64,000 bases of DNA from Alphaproteobacteria bacterium (GTDB taxonomy: Bacteria; Pseudomonadota; Alphaproteobacteria; Caulobacterales; Hyphomonadaceae), in contig JAAEZZ010000003.1 in the NCBI GenBank assembly GCA_018222605.1, positions 1 through 64,000 on the forward strand, given 5' to 3'. Below, in pieces: positions 969 to 9,004 of the stretch; the first letter of the stretch is position 1; the number at the start of each line of letters is the position of its first letter. Made by a program: the position numbers and the translations under genes. The notes beneath the pieces were generated by a model, which worked only from the letters and a program-made list of their open reading frames with translations, was not told the origin of the DNA and searched no databases.

Positions 969-1214
969 TCATTCATATCCGCGGATCAGGATGCCTACTC
1001 TGTCCTCCGTAATCGGCCATTCTGCATACTGGGCAAGGTATTCCAAAAGTGCTGAATTATCCGCGTTATTATTGGATACGCCAACGCATTCGATGTACGA
1101 GAACGGCACCGAGTTTATGCCTCCGCATTCTCCTAAATTATTTTCATACTCGAAATCGGGATAAGGCGTCAGAACACTGAGAACCGTATAGACAATAAAC
1201 TTCAACCCGATCAT
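969..1214 (-). CDS. small hypothetical protein (MIGLKFIVYTVLSVLTPYPDFEYENN...)
   Basis: ORF 969..1241; its 5' part overlaps an IS3 remnant, so the internal ATG is preferred. Confidence 0.35.
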   Translation of the reverse strand: MIGLKFIVYTVLSVLTPYPDFEYENNLGECGGINSVPFSYIECVGVSNNNADNSALLEYLAQYAEWPITEDRVGILIRGYE

Positions 1215-1504
1215 CGAACAACAAGAAACTCCTTCGACCATGTGCAGTAAATGCCTAGGGAGATTCCCTCACGTCCGCACAGTTCGGCAATCGAATACTC
1301 TTCGCGAAGGCCTTCCAGCACGATGCGGATCTTCCCTTCCGCGGAGAATTTACGCCGGGTCTTGCGACGGATTTCTTTTACATGTCGCTCTGCCGATCCG
1401 TCCGGACCGGGTTTCTGTCTCATGGTCGCTAACGGGGAACATCCCTGGTGAGTATTTGCAAACTCGCCCATGAACGAACTATATGAACGAAGCTGTTCGC
1501 GCAT
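1211..1504 (-). pseudogene. IS3-family transposase OrfA remnant
   Basis: RKTRRKFSAEGKIRIVLEGLREEYSIAELCGREGISLGIYCTWSKEFL is the IS3 OrfA HTH; truncated with no OrfB. Confidence 0.75.
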
Positions 1505-1583: not shown

Positions 1584-3803
1584 TCACATCGACACCTTGA
1601 ACTCCAGGCCAACCAGCCTTGGCCTCTGCCGCGCATATGTCTGGTTGCCCAGCAGATTACCGTACGCGAAGGTCTTGTTATCTTCGTCCAGCAGGTTCTG
1701 GGCGAACAAAGCGAGCGACCACCCCTTCGGCTTGTTCTCAATCGACAGCCGCAACCCCATATCACTTACTTTTTCCGAACGGGAAAGCGGATCGGCAAGA
1801 AACTGCGTCATTTCGCTGGTGTACGTGTAACTCAGCTGGAAAACGCCATCATAGGAGTCCCCCAATGAGTAATAATATCTCGAAACGGCGTTGAGGGAGA
1901 ATTCGGGTGACTGCGTGAGGCGGTCTCCTTTCAGCACGGGTGCGGCAACGGGAATACCGCGCACATCCGATGGCGGCTTTGTGACTTCCGCATCGAGATA
2001 GGCGGCACCGAATGAGACATCCCAACTGTCGGAGACCTGAGCCGCGATTTCCAACTCCGCACCCGTTGCTTCGGATTCCGGAAGTGTCGCGAGCGTTGAG
2101 ACTGGCCCGAATGCAGTCGGGATGAAGATGGCTGACTGTTTGTCTTCATATTGATAATGGAACACAGCAGCACTGGCCTGCACCCGGTCCTTGAGGCGTG
2201 TTTTGAAACCCGTCTCATATGAAGTGAGCTGTTCCGGCGGAACATATCCCCAACCGAGCGGATCCGGCACTGCACCCGAATAAAACACTCCGGATTTGAA
2301 GCCGGTAGCGACCGAAGCATAGAGCAAGGTATTTTCCGTTGCCTGATAGTCCACTCCGGCGCGCCATGAAAAATCTGACTCACTTTCCTCGGAATCGACC
2401 TCAACAATGACACCCCCAAAGCCGCCGACAACATACCCAGAATTGTCAGTTACATTTCCACGGAACCGGCGCTCGTCATCAGTGTACCGGCCCGCAAGCG
2501 TAAGTGTCAGCGCATCGCTGAGATACCATTCGGAGTGAGCATAGATTCCCAATGATTTTGTAATTTGACGCGTGGTCGCGGTCTGAGTCACCTCGATACC
2601 AAAATCGGATGGGCGCAACCCGTCCGGAGACAGAAGGTTGAGAGTATCGGTGGCTAGGATGTCGTCCGTTACGTCGATGAAGTCCCGGCCATATACCAGG
2701 CCCATAATCAAGCTTCCCCGATTGCCGAATTCCGAAGACAAGCGGATCTCCTGACTGATTTGCTCCACATCCGTACGGAAGTGGAAATCCGCAAGCGTCG
2801 CAGGAGACCCGTCATTGTTATCATAGGCATCGCGGTCGATTGTCTGCCAGCCCGTAATTGCTTCAAGCTCTCCAACTGGCGTGTCTGCGGAGATTCGGAA
2901 GTTTGCTCCCCACAGGTTCGTGTCGTTCTTGGGCGAGCGGACTCCATCCACACCCGTGAAGAATGACCCCAAATCAGTCCTGTCGGCCTGATCAGGAGAA
3001 GAAAACTGAATCCCGAGAAAGCCGTCATACCCAACACGATCATCACTGTGCCAAGATGGATTAACGCCCTGATCGCGTTCAGCATGCAGTGTGAAAAGCG
3101 TATCGATCCCATCCACGGGTGTGTATGCAAGATGAACCCGCCCTGACAGCCGATCAGATTTTGCTGCATCGGCACTACCGTTCACACCGTCCTGCCAGCC
3201 ATCAAAACTCTTTTCATAGTTAAAAGCTGCACGTGCACCAAAGCGCTCTGACAACGGACCAGATACCACTCCGGTCAAGTTGCTTTCATTGAGTGTATTC
3301 ACACGCCCCAGCAGATAAGCTTCCGCATTTTTACCAGGCTTGGCGGTAATGATATTTACCGCTCCACCGGTAGAATTGCGGCCATACAATGTACCCTGCG
3401 GCCCCTTCAGAACTTCAACCCGCTCAAGATCAAACAGCCGGAAGCCCTGCATCACCGCAGAGACAGGGTATATCTCATCGACATATATGGCGGTACCACT
3501 GGCATTATTTCCAATAAAATCCTCGAGGCCAACCCCGCGTATACTGAATGATGGGGCACCAACTGAATTCATAACTGTCGACAACCCTGGCGTTTGACCA
3601 GCCAGATCCAACGGGTCTCCAATGGAAAGCTCCGTGAGATCTTCGCCGTCAAATGCTGAAATGGCGACTGGTACGTTCGAAACATCCTCAGCCTTCTTCT
3701 GGGCTGTTACCGTGACCGTATCCAGAACTCTGTCCTGAGCATGGGTGATCTGCCCTACCCCAATTGCCCCGATTGCGATTGCCGCAAAGCGAATAACTTC
3801 CAT
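1584..3803 (-). CDS. TonB-dependent receptor
   Basis: VTVTAQKKAEDVSNVPVAISAF TonB box/plug, RVEVLKGPQGTLYGRNSTGGAVNI, C-terminal beta-barrel ending in ...GLEFKVSM; start MEVIRFAAIA at 3803. Confidence 0.95.
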   Translation of the reverse strand: MEVIRFAAIAIGAIGVGQITHAQDRVLDTVTVTAQKKAEDVSNVPVAISAFDGEDLTELSIGDPLDLAGQTPGLSTVMNSVGAPSFSIRGVGLEDFIGNNASGTAIYVDEIYPVSAVMQGFRLFDLERVEVLKGPQGTLYGRNSTGGAVNIITAKPGKNAEAYLLGRVNTLNESNLTGVVSGPLSERFGARAAFNYEKSFDGWQDGVNGSADAAKSDRLSGRVHLAYTPVDGIDTLFTLHAERDQGVNPSWHSDDRVGYDGFLGIQFSSPDQADRTDLGSFFTGVDGVRSPKNDTNLWGANFRISADTPVGELEAITGWQTIDRDAYDNNDGSPATLADFHFRTDVEQISQEIRLSSEFGNRGSLIMGLVYGRDFIDVTDDILATDTLNLLSPDGLRPSDFGIEVTQTATTRQITKSLGIYAHSEWYLSDALTLTLAGRYTDDERRFRGNVTDNSGYVVGGFGGVIVEVDSEESESDFSWRAGVDYQATENTLLYASVATGFKSGVFYSGAVPDPLGWGYVPPEQLTSYETGFKTRLKDRVQASAAVFHYQYEDKQSAIFIPTAFGPVSTLATLPESEATGAELEIAAQVSDSWDVSFGAAYLDAEVTKPPSDVRGIPVAAPVLKGDRLTQSPEFSLNAVSRYYYSLGDSYDGVFQLSYTYTSEMTQFLADPLSRSEKVSDMGLRLSIENKPKGWSLALFAQNLLDEDNKTFAYGNLLGNQTYARQRPRLVGLEFKVSM

Positions 3804-3838
3804 GACCCTCTCCCGCGTGATGCCGACATATATTATTA

Positions 3839-3850
3839 GTATGATCGTAC
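3839..3850. promoter_or_regulatory. candidate TetR operator upstream of the TonB receptor (GTATGATCGTAC)
   Basis: Near-palindrome; its minus-strand reading AATGGTACGATCATAC matches AATGGTACGATTGTAC at 4949-4964 in 14/16 positions. Confidence 0.55.
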
Positions 3851-4167
3851 CATTATTAAGGACCACAAGCCTGTCAAATGATTTTTTGGGGCCGGAGCAC
3901 ATTCTTACCGTCTACGGAATGTGGACAACCTGCCCTGCACACACTTCGTGCAGGGCGTATACTCAGATGTAAAAGAGCAGCAGAACGATCTAGGGCGTTT
4001 GCCGCCAAGACTGGAACTCGAAGCGGATAAACATTCGCGGACTACGAACGCAGCTGAGACCAACGACCACTTCGTCAGCAGATCCCGTCCAGCAGGCGGG
4101 TGAGTTACAATGCTACATTCTGCCGGAAAGCATCAGGCCTGCGGGCGCTGCCCTGCGAGCGCTCGTT

Positions 4168-4932
4168 TTAATCATCGGCGTCGTCGACAATTCTAAGAAT
4201 AAGCCTTTTCAAGTCCTTCTCCGCATTCCGGACTGCCGGGATACGCGGCTTTTGATATCCTCGAAACAGGGATGCACCTTCGATCAGGGAAATGATCAGA
4301 AACGCGCATCGGTTGGCCTTGGCCGCCGTAAGGCCAGGACGGGCACGGCGCACCAGAACTGCCAATGTTTCCAAATAGGTCTGATAATAAGAGTTCATAA
4401 TGTTCGCTGCAGTCACATCGTGCGCGGCCAGCGCCCACAGCTCCCAGAAAATTATGCAACTATTCTGGCTGGTTTGGTCTTTGAGAAGGTAATCAATCGT
4501 GTTGAGCAGCGTGGTTTCGCCATTCGCACCCGATTCAGGATCACCAACCTGATCAAGCTCCGCATCATAGCGGCCCATCTCCCGCTTCAGCATTGCTTCA
4601 ATCAGGTCTGCTCTCGTTGGAAAGTAGAACTGGAGGTTGCCAACTGTGATACCTGCAGTTTCTGCAACCTTCCGGTAAGACAAACCCGCATAGCCGGTTT
4701 CAACAAGAATCTGAACCGCGCAGTCCAGGACTTCTTCCCGCTTTTTCTCACCTTTTCTCATTCCGTCCACGACTCCCGATACAGCATTCAATTCCCTTAT
4801 ACGATATTGCTGCATAACGAAATCCTGTTCACTGAACAGTGCTGCCGACTTACCTGTACTCTCAGCTAAATCAAGATAACTCCTCCTCTGATTTTTGTCA
4901 GGTCGGACGAAAGTCGACAACAGCATTGACAA
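4168..4932 (-). CDS. TetR/AcrR-family transcriptional regulator
   Basis: N-terminal HTH EEVLDCAVQILVETGYAGLSYRKVAETAGITVGNLQFYFPTRADLIEAML; true start may be internal (e.g. 4815). Confidence 0.9.
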   Translation of the reverse strand: MSMLLSTFVRPDKNQRRSYLDLAESTGKSAALFSEQDFVMQQYRIRELNAVSGVVDGMRKGEKKREEVLDCAVQILVETGYAGLSYRKVAETAGITVGNLQFYFPTRADLIEAMLKREMGRYDAELDQVGDPESGANGETTLLNTIDYLLKDQTSQNSCIIFWELWALAAHDVTAANIMNSYYQTYLETLAVLVRRARPGLTAAKANRCAFLIISLIEGASLFRGYQKPRIPAVRNAEKDLKRLILRIVDDADD

Positions 4933-4952
4933 TCGGCCACATCCTATAAATG

Positions 4953-4964
4953 GTACGATTGTAC
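4953..4964. promoter_or_regulatory. candidate TetR operator in the tetR/Tat-subunit divergent promoter (GTACGATTGTAC)
   Basis: Lies between the divergent genes; matches the site at 3839-3850. Confidence 0.55.
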
Positions 4965-4989
4965 TTTTTTGTGTTTATGGGTGACCTAG

Positions 4990-5592
4990 ATGAGAGCAGG
5001 ACAGGGCAGTATACTTTCGCGACGAGGCTTCTTGGTAGCAGGCGTAGCTGGAGGCGTTCTGGCAGCAGCGGGCGGGACGATTGCGTTGCGCATGTCGCGT
5101 TCGGAGGCGGATTATCGCGCAATTGCGGGTGATGGATCGCCACCTTTGGTTCTGAACTGGAAAGGCCTGGCGGTGATGTCTCTGGTAGCCAACCGCATCA
5201 TCGCCCCAACTGCTGACATGCCTTCCGTGCAGGAAACGATGACAGCTCGCCGAATCGATCTCGAACTTTCATACGGCAGTGCAAAGCTCCAGTCGGATAT
5301 GAAAGCTTCCCTGGGATACCTTGAAATTCTTCCGGCCTTGTCCGGCGACGTACGTCCTTTCTCCACACTGCCTGCAGATGAACAAACCGACACGCTGCGG
5401 TCGATGAGCGCAAGCGCTGGAGCTGACCGGGCGATCTACATGGCGCTGAAATTCTTCTCAGGCCTGTTCTACTACACCGACGACCGCAGCTGGCCCTCAA
5501 TCGACTATGTCGGGCCATCGGTTCCGGAAAAAGTGTTTGAAGGCGGAAACCGCATTGCAAATCTTGCTCTCAATCAGGAGGTGGTGCAATGA
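4990..5592 (+). CDS. Tat-signal small subunit of a GMC oxidoreductase (gluconate 2-dehydrogenase subunit 3-like)
   Basis: SRRGFLVAGVAGGVLAAAGG twin-arginine signal; ORF overlaps the start of the downstream GMC gene. Confidence 0.7.
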   Translation: MRAGQGSILSRRGFLVAGVAGGVLAAAGGTIALRMSRSEADYRAIAGDGSPPLVLNWKGLAVMSLVANRIIAPTADMPSVQETMTARRIDLELSYGSAKLQSDMKASLGYLEILPALSGDVRPFSTLPADEQTDTLRSMSASAGADRAIYMALKFFSGLFYYTDDRSWPSIDYVGPSVPEKVFEGGNRIANLALNQEVVQ

Positions 5593-7151
5593 TTCAGGAA
5601 GGCAAGGACATAAAGGCTGATATCGAAAAAACCGCAGACGTAGTGGTCATCGGCTCCGGTTGCGGCGGTGCAACTGCCGCAAAGGAACTCGCCCGGGCAG
5701 GGTTTGACGTCGTCATGGTGGAGCGGGGCGGATACTACACGACAGGGCGCGGCGATTTCGATCAGCGTGCCGATAACATGCTGGCTCGCATTGATGGCGG
5801 CCGCGGGCTCGAAACATCCTCCAATTCTGAAATCGCGCTGATGTATGGAAATTGCGTTGGCGGCGCCAGCGTACACTACTGGGGTGACAGCTGGCGCCTG
5901 CCGGAAGACAGGGCCAAGCAGTGGAGCGAACAGGGTATTTCGGGCCATGATCACGACACGCTGGCACCAATCTTCGATCAAATCGAGAAAGATCTGAATA
6001 TCCACGTTCATGGGCCCGAATACTACAACCGCCTCAACCAGCTTTTCGATATCGGCGCCGAACGCCTCGGCTGGGGGATCGAAGCGGTACCTCAGGCCAG
6101 ACGTGGCTGTGCCGCGAGCGGACATTGCTACCAGGGATGCGCTTTTGATGCCAAGCAAAGCATGGCCGTCACCTACGTCCCGGAATTTCTGAAGGCTGGT
6201 GGACACCTGTATGCCGACGTCCAGGTCGACCGGATCACACGCGATGCCGCGGGTCATGCGGACGGTGTCGATTGCTCCGTGATCGACAGAGCCACTGGCC
6301 GTCCAACCGGACAGTCTGTCCGCATTAATGCGCGAGCGGTCGTTCTGGCAGCCGGAGGGTTCAGTTCGGCGGTCATCTGGCTCAAATCGCAGCTTCCTAA
6401 CCGTAGTGGCATGGTCGGCCGGAATTTTCTCTGCAACCCGAACCCTGTCGTCTACGCCGTGTTCGACGAAGATATTAATATGTGGATGAACGTACCGGCT
6501 GCGACTGGGACGAAAGACTTTCGTCTTCCAACATATGACGTAAACGGGAATTACGTTGAGGGCGGTTACTTGCTGCACCCCAACCAGCTTCAGCCGGAAA
6601 TTCTGGCTGCGTTGCTGCCGGGAGTCGGCGCAGAGTATCAGGAGCTCATGCGTGAGCTTCCTCGGATCGGCTCTGCGGTCGCGTGGATTGACGACGAGAT
6701 TGGTGGCCGTATTACGCTCGGCGGTGACGGCGAGCCTGTCTACGACTACAAGCTCATTGGCGACGACCTGTTGAAGATGCGCGACGCGATGAAAAAAGAG
6801 GCGCAGCTGCTGTTCGCCAGCGGCGCGCGCTATTGCTTTGTTCCAGACGCTGGCGGAACCCGCATCCTTTCTGCTGATGAGATTTCCCTGCTCGATACCA
6901 TCGATATCGAGAACGGCGCCGTGCTTCATGGCGCGCCACACCCGGCCGGGACCCTGAAAATGGGAGATGACCCTGCCCGGTCAGTGGTGGCATCCACCCA
7001 TGAAGCGCACGAAGTGCCTGGCCTTTTCGTTGCAGACCCAAGCGTGTTTCCGAGCGGACCAAGCGTGGATCCGTCCGAGACGATCATGGCGTTCTCAGTC
7101 ATCGCGGCACGACATGTTTCGCGAAAACTGACGCAAGGATCAGCACAATGA
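5589..7151 (+). CDS. GMC-family FAD-dependent oxidoreductase
   Basis: VVVIGSGCGGATAAKELARAGFDVVMVERGG Rossmann motif; C-terminal PHPAGTLKMG and GLFVADPSVFPSGPSVDPSETIMAFS. Confidence 0.93.
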   Translation: MIQEGKDIKADIEKTADVVVIGSGCGGATAAKELARAGFDVVMVERGGYYTTGRGDFDQRADNMLARIDGGRGLETSSNSEIALMYGNCVGGASVHYWGDSWRLPEDRAKQWSEQGISGHDHDTLAPIFDQIEKDLNIHVHGPEYYNRLNQLFDIGAERLGWGIEAVPQARRGCAASGHCYQGCAFDAKQSMAVTYVPEFLKAGGHLYADVQVDRITRDAAGHADGVDCSVIDRATGRPTGQSVRINARAVVLAAGGFSSAVIWLKSQLPNRSGMVGRNFLCNPNPVVYAVFDEDINMWMNVPAATGTKDFRLPTYDVNGNYVEGGYLLHPNQLQPEILAALLPGVGAEYQELMRELPRIGSAVAWIDDEIGGRITLGGDGEPVYDYKLIGDDLLKMRDAMKKEAQLLFASGARYCFVPDAGGTRILSADEISLLDTIDIENGAVLHGAPHPAGTLKMGDDPARSVVASTHEAHEVPGLFVADPSVFPSGPSVDPSETIMAFSVIAARHVSRKLTQGSAQ

Positions 7152-7537
7152 AAACCTTCTTTTCCATATTCTGGAGATTTCTCTTTCTGATCTCCATACT
7201 GAATTATTCTGACACGACCTCCATCATTGCGAATGGCGGGTTCAACCATGTCGCCCTTCCACCGGAGATGATCTCGCAGGAGATGGTCGGGAATGCATTC
7301 CAGTCTATCGGCTGGAGTATCGTGTTTATCCTGTCACTGCGCCGCAACCCTCTATTTGCTCCGGAGCTCTGCTACTTTCTTGGCGGAATGCTCTTCTTCG
7401 ATGTCCAGACAACCTGGACACTCGACATGCCTCTGCCGCCCGGTTTCCTGATCTGGGGAACAATTGTCGCTGGTTTGCATGTTCTGGCCGGAGTCTATCT
7501 TGCAACCCGTCGCGCCGCCGCGCACCAAGTCGCTTAG
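7148..7537 (+). CDS. small integral membrane protein (paralog A)
   Basis: 129 aa, several hydrophobic segments; ATGA overlap with the GMC gene. Confidence 0.75.
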   Translation: MKTFFSIFWRFLFLISILNYSDTTSIIANGGFNHVALPPEMISQEMVGNAFQSIGWSIVFILSLRRNPLFAPELCYFLGGMLFFDVQTTWTLDMPLPPGFLIWGTIVAGLHVLAGVYLATRRAAAHQVA

Positions 7538-7547
7538 GAGACCGCCC

Positions 7548-7919
7548 GTGTTTTGGAAACTTCTTCCCGTTGTTCCTATACTTACTTTTTCTCATTCCAC
7601 GATCGGCTTCCTGAGCAGCGACTTCGGCTCCGCAGGACTTCCCGATGCTGTCCTGCCGCTACATGCTTGGGTCAACGCATTTGAATCGGCGGGCTGGCTA
7701 TCCGTCCTTGCTCTTTCCTTCACCGGACGGTCATGGGTCGCCTCCCGACTGGCGGTGTTTCTTGCCGGAATGTGGTTTTGGGACATGGTTACAACGCTCA
7801 ACCTAGAAATGCCGGTGCCGCCTCTTCAGATCATCTGGGGCCCGGTCAGCGTTTTTGCGATGCTGTTGCTGGCCTACCAGCTCCACCTCGACAGCAAGAA
7901 TATTTTGAAAGATCTCTGA
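7548..7919 (+). CDS. small integral membrane protein (paralog B)
   Basis: GTG start after a GGAG RBS; same architecture as paralog A (FLAGMWFWDMVTTLNLEMPVPPLQIIWG vs FLGGMLFFDVQTTWTLDMPLPPGFLIWG). Confidence 0.72.
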   Translation: MFWKLLPVVPILTFSHSTIGFLSSDFGSAGLPDAVLPLHAWVNAFESAGWLSVLALSFTGRSWVASRLAVFLAGMWFWDMVTTLNLEMPVPPLQIIWGPVSVFAMLLLAYQLHLDSKNILKDL

Positions 7920-7921
7920 TC

Positions 7922-9004
7922 ATGAATAACCCGGTTCTAATTGTCGGCGGCTATGGCGTCGTCGGCCTGCAGCTCGCACACATCATCCGTGACACCCATC
8001 CTGATCTTCCCCTTATCCTGGCTGGACGAACACTGAGGGATGCGGAAGATGCAGCAGCCACACTCGGAAACGCGACAGGATTCAGGCTGGATGTGAACGA
8101 AACCGGTCCGCTTGCAAACCAGACATACCCACTTTCGGCCGTGGTAGCCGTCACGAATGATCCGGACGACAATCTGATGCGCGCCGCGATTGGAAGAGGA
8201 ATCCCGTACTTAGACATCACTCGCTGGACTGAGCGGCTCCATGAAGCAACGCTGCTGGCAGGCATTCTAGATCTCAAGGCGCCGGTCGTCCTGTCCTCGT
8301 CATGGATGGCGGGCGTCAGTGCCATCGTCGCCAAAGCCGCCGCCCGCCGGCTGGCAAAGGTCGAGGAAATCGACACGGCCATACTTTACAGATTGAAGGA
8401 TAAGGCGGGTCCGAATTCCGTCGAGTATGCCGACCGCCTCGGCATACCCTTCCGCGTACGCGAAGACGGCCGATGGAAAACGGTCAAACCCATGAGCGAC
8501 CCGGCCAGGGTTACTTTCCCAGGGGGCTATTCAGGCAAAGCTTACCGGTTCGACGAACCGAGCCAGGAAACGCTTGCGTTATACACTGGCGCCCAATCTG
8601 CGTCGTCCCGCATCACCTATGACGATGCAGGCACAACGGGCACGATGGCCTTTCTTGTCGGTTCGGGAATCTGGGGTCTTCTCAGTGGACCCGCATTCAC
8701 CAAGACACGTCGTTCAATTATCTATCACCCCGGCGAAGGCGCCTCACACGAGATCGTCATCTCAATCTCCGGAACAGATTCCGATGGCCAGCCCCGAAAA
8801 GTACGGGCAACCGTTCTGGACCCAGCAGGCCAAACACATCTCACGGCAGTCGGCGCATATATACAGCTGGCGGAAACTCTTGGTCTCAATTCTGGAACAG
8901 CACGCCCGGCCGGAACCTACTATCCCGAAAACACTGAAAATCTGGACGAAGTCCTCCGCTGTCTTCAGAGCCACGCAGTGCAAATTGAGTTTACAGATAT
9001 GTAA
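7922..9004 (+). CDS. saccharopine dehydrogenase-like NAD(P)-binding protein
   Basis: MNNPVLIVGGYGVVGLQLAHIIRDTHPDLPLILAGRTL N-terminal Rossmann motif and overall layout. Confidence 0.75.
   Translation: MNNPVLIVGGYGVVGLQLAHIIRDTHPDLPLILAGRTLRDAEDAAATLGNATGFRLDVNETGPLANQTYPLSAVVAVTNDPDDNLMRAAIGRGIPYLDITRWTERLHEATLLAGILDLKAPVVLSSSWMAGVSAIVAKAAARRLAKVEEIDTAILYRLKDKAGPNSVEYADRLGIPFRVREDGRWKTVKPMSDPARVTFPGGYSGKAYRFDEPSQETLALYTGAQSASSRITYDDAGTTGTMAFLVGSGIWGLLSGPAFTKTRRSIIYHPGEGASHEIVISISGTDSDGQPRKVRATVLDPAGQTHLTAVGAYIQLAETLGLNSGTARPAGTYYPENTENLDEVLRCLQSHAVQIEFTDM

Follow-up and report, generated by a model that had tools for sequence, protein, structure and literature searches.

Candidate TetR operators shared by a TonB-dependent receptor gene and a GMC-oxidoreductase operon in an alphaproteobacterium

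Described systems and the genes of the locus

RutR of E. coli and similar TetR regulators recognize TGGTCA/TGACCA half sites, which in the case of RutR are ordered as TTGACCA-N2-TGGTCAA. The TetR fold and similar half sites are common to RutR, the regulator considered here and its relatives, but the order of the half sites is opposite in RutR, and the sequence relation between our regulator and RutR is weak.

In the estrogen-degradation (edc) cluster of Novosphingobium tardaugens, a putative TetR gene is divergent from the catabolic operons, and the TonB-dependent receptor EdcT belongs to these operons and is induced with the pathway (PMC7793797). It resembles our locus in that a putative TetR gene neighbors catabolic operons and a TonB receptor gene; the enzymes are different, however, the edc receptor is encoded within an operon, and the operator of the edc regulator is not described in that study (PMC7793797).

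A further group of counterparts, namely TetR-SDH cassettes on Streptomyces plasmids and in an alphaproteobacterial family (f11), was found in this analysis; the literature search returned no report describing such a cassette. As in our locus, a related TetR is linked to a gene for a saccharopine-dehydrogenase-like protein (SDH), and a palindromic site lies at the shared promoter, with several nearby sites in f11. Unlike our locus, most of these cassettes have neither a TonB receptor gene nor a GMC gene, and in Streptomyces tetR is inside the operon rather than divergent from it. The core of their palindrome is GGTC-N4-GACC, compared with GTACGATYRTAC here.

Our locus lies in the window, i.e., the whole stretch of 64,000 nucleotides that was analyzed. 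A TonB-dependent receptor gene on the minus strand (1584..3803) matches Pfam TonB_dep_Rec_b-barrel (9e-37) and Plug (8.6e-15), and its product is 48% identical to the receptor of L030, a locus from a third lineage of relatives. Its start is most likely ATG 3803, which is followed by a signal peptide. Downstream of the receptor gene, at 1200-1423 (minus strand), there is a short remnant that resembles, by eye, the first ORF of an IS3-type transposase.

The tetR gene (4168..4815, minus strand) matches Pfam TetR_N (2.2e-8) and TetR_C_6 (6.1e-8), and its scores for PF00440 (34.2 bits, cut-off 24) and PF13977 (33.3, cut-off 27) place the product, which is 41% identical to the TetR of L030, in the TetR family. 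A reading made from the sequence alone had extended this gene to a TTG start (4168..4932). The start is probably ATG 4815 instead, because AGGA precedes it and the resulting N-terminus is equal in length to that of the L030 protein.

On the plus strand follow, in the order tat-GMC-M1-M2-SDH, genes that overlap or nearly touch their neighbors. The tat gene (4990..5592) encodes a twin-arginine signal (RRGFL in the translation) and weakly resembles subunit 3 of gluconate 2-dehydrogenase (Pfam Gluconate_2-dh3, E 0.0037, below cut-off). The GMC oxidoreductase gene (5589..7151) matches GMC_oxred_N (3.8e-32) and GMC_oxred_C (4.7e-16). M1 (7148..7537) and M2 (7548..7919, with a GTG start) are small hydrophobic proteins that resemble each other and are conserved in L034, L073 and L030; M1 has no assigned family. 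The SDH gene (7922..9004) matches Sacchrp_dh_NADP with an E of 0.0024, below cut-off; its relative in L030 scores above cut-off, and the Streptomyces annotation is alike. That is, the subunit-3-like and saccharopine-dehydrogenase-like names are based on sub-cut-off Pfam matches together with relatives. The tetR and SDH genes are linked: they lie on the two sides of one divergent promoter, within a distance of 5 kb.

The locus was probably acquired horizontally, because it is absent from the sampled relatives in the genus, family and order, in which neither the TetR nor the GMC protein has an orthologue; elsewhere in the sampled phylum there is none for GMC either. A search of genome contigs with TetR gave no match, and with GMC it gave a match in L034 only, on a contig that ends before the promoter; TetR was not found in the L034 genome. 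In a MAG named Woeseia, a GMC gene 79% identical to ours occurs together with M1, M2 and SDH.

Two similar sites in two promoters

Site 1, AATGGTACGATCATAC, is at 3854-3839 on the minus strand, and site 2, AATGGTACGATTGTAC, is at 4949-4964. They are identical at 14/16 positions, or 15/17 with the next base added, and the differences are confined to positions 12 and 13 (CA versus TG). Inside both 16-mers is GTACGATYRTAC, which is one mismatched pair short of a perfect 12-bp palindrome. The coordinates, strands, identity and near-palindromes given in the sequence-only reading were thereby verified. We refer below to two slightly longer elements that contain these 16-mers, i.e., putative operator 1 (3835..3854, AATGGTACGATCATACTAAT on the minus strand) and putative operator 2 (4949..4968, plus strand, AATGGTACGATTGTACTTTT).

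Both sites have the same orientation relative to their respective downstream gene. With the receptor start most likely at ATG 3803, site 1 falls 36-51 bp before the receptor gene. The corresponding distance of site 2 to tat (4990), which it precedes, is 26-41 bp, and tetR is about 134 bp away from it; site 2 adjoins tat, not tetR. A possible -35 element, TTGACA, is found 17 bases upstream of operator 1 (3872..3877, minus strand) and, with the same spacing, upstream of operator 2 (4926..4931, plus strand). Operator 1 overlaps a -10-like AATAAT in the TonB promoter, and operator 2 closely follows TATAAA, which comes 13 bases after TTGACA in the tat promoter. Between tetR and the receptor promoter, at 3932-3956, the window also contains a perfect 9-bp stem, GCCCTGCAC/GTGCAGGGC, without a T run.

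A scan of the 3.7-Mb genome for the 16-mer, with up to 3 mismatches allowed, returned just two exact copies rather than many unrelated ones, none with one mismatch, and 3 others with two. The site is therefore present in each of the two promoters and absent elsewhere at this level of identity, as expected of a local regulon. When the 12-mer core alone was considered, with 2 mismatches permitted, there was no enrichment within the window (15 found versus 13.2 expected).

Related cassettes and their predicted operators

In the Streptomyces plasmids the related tetR and SDH genes overlap by 4 bp, and the cassette promoter carries TTTAGGTCGAGTGACCTATA or a close variant. In f11 the SDH gene is present in 16/40 genomes, and 14 of the 16 SDH-bearing loci have a TetR homologue encoded divergently from SDH or tat. 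Their shared promoters carry palindromes such as AATTGGTCATATGACCAATA, often immediately 3' of TTGACA, and several loci have additional site copies about 1.3 kb away. One of these loci, L078, has two more predicted TetR-type operators (L078:3477-3548), which are located at a distance of 1.3 kb from the SDH-tetR promoter and are flanked by genes for a GNAT acetyltransferase and a PAS-domain protein; L080-L086 have similar extra sites. Upstream of tetR in L032 and L033 is ATTAGGTCGTACGACCTAAT or a variant of it. More distant plasmid TetRs have no palindrome in common.

The gene order tetR, tat, GMC, M1, M2, SDH recurs in L073, one of the f11 loci, with two predicted operators before tat. In L074 (9860-10300), tetR, both predicted operators and SDH are kept, but the start of tat runs into the apparent end of M2, which resembles a precise deletion of tat-GMC-M1-M2. 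In L030, the genes for TetR, a TonB receptor, a fused M1M2 and SDH are found together. The TonB and M1M2 promoters of this locus have AAACAATAYRWWTGACCTAWTAA in common (p 0.01 with a mild mismatch penalty, 0.23 with a strict one), and one half of this site is the family half TGACCTA. Instead of GMC genes, the L030 operon (2681-5649) has methylamine-dehydrogenase-type genes after SDH, namely for the heavy chain, MauE, a MauD-like redoxin and the light chain, which gives the impression that one oxidation module can be swapped for another under a constant regulator. L034 has an acyl-CoA dehydrogenase, and the oxidation partner thus varies among relatives.

This phylogenetic footprinting supports the proposed operators in that the layout is similar and palindromes occur at the relatives' promoters, but the window sites match the GGTC-N4-GACC consensus poorly, and no dyad of this form is present in the window. 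We aligned all of the relatives' sites on the canonical half to construct a matrix, for which operators 1 and 2 are the best positions of the TonB promoter and of the tetR-tat region, respectively, in the exact register. Both scores were reached in 2.6% of trials with shuffled regions (joint p 0.026), and both sites were picked by 1.5% of column-permuted control matrices. The match to the window is weak, however, when L030 is left out of the matrix. On balance, we rate the evidence from position as good and the link to the family operator by sequence as moderate. As far as such an alignment can indicate, the window sites are in register with those of the relatives, with a core that is diverged from the GGTC/GACC consensus.

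With a strict dyad matrix, operator 1 is the top-scoring position of its region (p 0.135), but in the tetR-tat region TTTTTGTCAGGTCGGACGAAAG is preferred to operator 2. Could TetR bind other sites near its own gene, so that the 16-mers are not its operators? A perfect 15-bp palindrome, CTGTTCACTGAACAG (4825-4839), is located a short distance before the probable start of tetR, GTGACCTA before tat is a family half site, and GGTC-type half sites occur at about 4901-4922 and 4982-4988. Nonetheless, we consider this explanation unlikely. None of these elements is found in the TonB promoter, and their scores are within those of shuffled sequences (p 0.08). The palindrome occurs in no relative, and its other exact or one-mismatch copies are in TrbE-like coding sequence; with its other exact genome copy inside such a sequence, it was rejected as a regulon site.

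The recognition helix reads RLSHVQYYF in most f11 proteins, RLGHVQYYF in Streptomyces L046 and L050, RKGNLQYYF in L032 and L033, TIGNLQYYF in L030 and TVGNLQFYF in the window TetR. Among the compared TetRs, only those of L030 and the window have Thr for Arg, and these two loci have the most diverged operators, a suggestion that the Arg-to-Thr change accompanies operator divergence. The His-to-Asn change was rejected as the cause, since L032 and L033 have Asn yet retain GGTC/GACC palindromes. It is possible, albeit doubtful, that an apparently undescribed TetR-SDH cassette extends across Actinomycetota and Proteobacteria, joined to a TonB receptor and to interchangeable oxidation modules (the GMC complex, or the methylamine-dehydrogenase-type enzyme in L030), and that helix (Arg to Thr) and operator have changed together in the window and L030, which would insulate the circuit from its relatives.

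Proposed control of uptake and oxidation

The resemblance between sites 1 and 2 is very unlikely to be fortuitous. For whole intergenic regions, shuffles matched the observed similarity in 7/400 trials (p about 0.018). When the comparison was limited to the 100 bp preceding each start codon, in the same orientation, p was 0.0017 or 0.006 with a strict mismatch penalty, and with a mild penalty 0/1000 shuffles were as good. That is, a 14/16 match between two 100-bp promoters is improbable by chance (p about 0.002-0.006). The significance varies with the region tested, p being about 0.002-0.02; 3/990 pairs of upstream regions of window ORFs score equally high by the strict measure, and the window scanned in the sequence-only reading was long. 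However, the two sites are alike in orientation and TTGACA spacing and unique in the genome, and L030 has a comparable site common to the same promoter pair. It is also highly improbable that the 16-mers are sites of another regulator, or a core-promoter element without a repressor: they overlap promoter-like hexamers, with TTGACA 17 bases before each, but a general promoter element would recur in the genome, whereas the two copies next to one TetR gene are the only ones in 3.7 Mb, and in the relatives the matching place is taken by predicted TetR operators.

The best-supported reading, judging from the sequences compared here, is that one local TetR regulator acts on both promoters, because the sites are unique and similarly placed and the layout of the relatives is similar. 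The regulatory reading of the site pair is probable, and the one-regulator, two-promoter local regulon originally proposed stands in these respects; its weak point is the poor fit of the sites to GGTC-N4-GACC. Also counting against operators at these positions are the imperfect palindromes and the other weak candidate sites in the tetR-tat region. In the mechanism that we consider likely, a dimer of the adjacent TetR would bind in the promoter of the TonB receptor gene, at operator 1, and in that of tat-GMC-M1-M2-SDH, at operator 2, covering each core promoter and keeping both units off. TetR would be released by a small-molecule ligand, probably the substrate or one of its products, and uptake through the receptor and the oxidation complex would therefore be induced together. 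We infer all four elements of this mechanism: binding, repression, release by a ligand and one common substrate.

The site pair is a fresh example of a familiar bacterial control arrangement, and the general understanding of TetR control is unchanged by it. It predicts which promoters are under one uncharacterized regulator, and it ties an uptake receptor to an uncharacterized GMC oxidation complex, so that induction could be used to seek the substrate of the complex. With their various operators and recognition helices, the relatives form a natural series in which shifts in TetR specificity could be tested.
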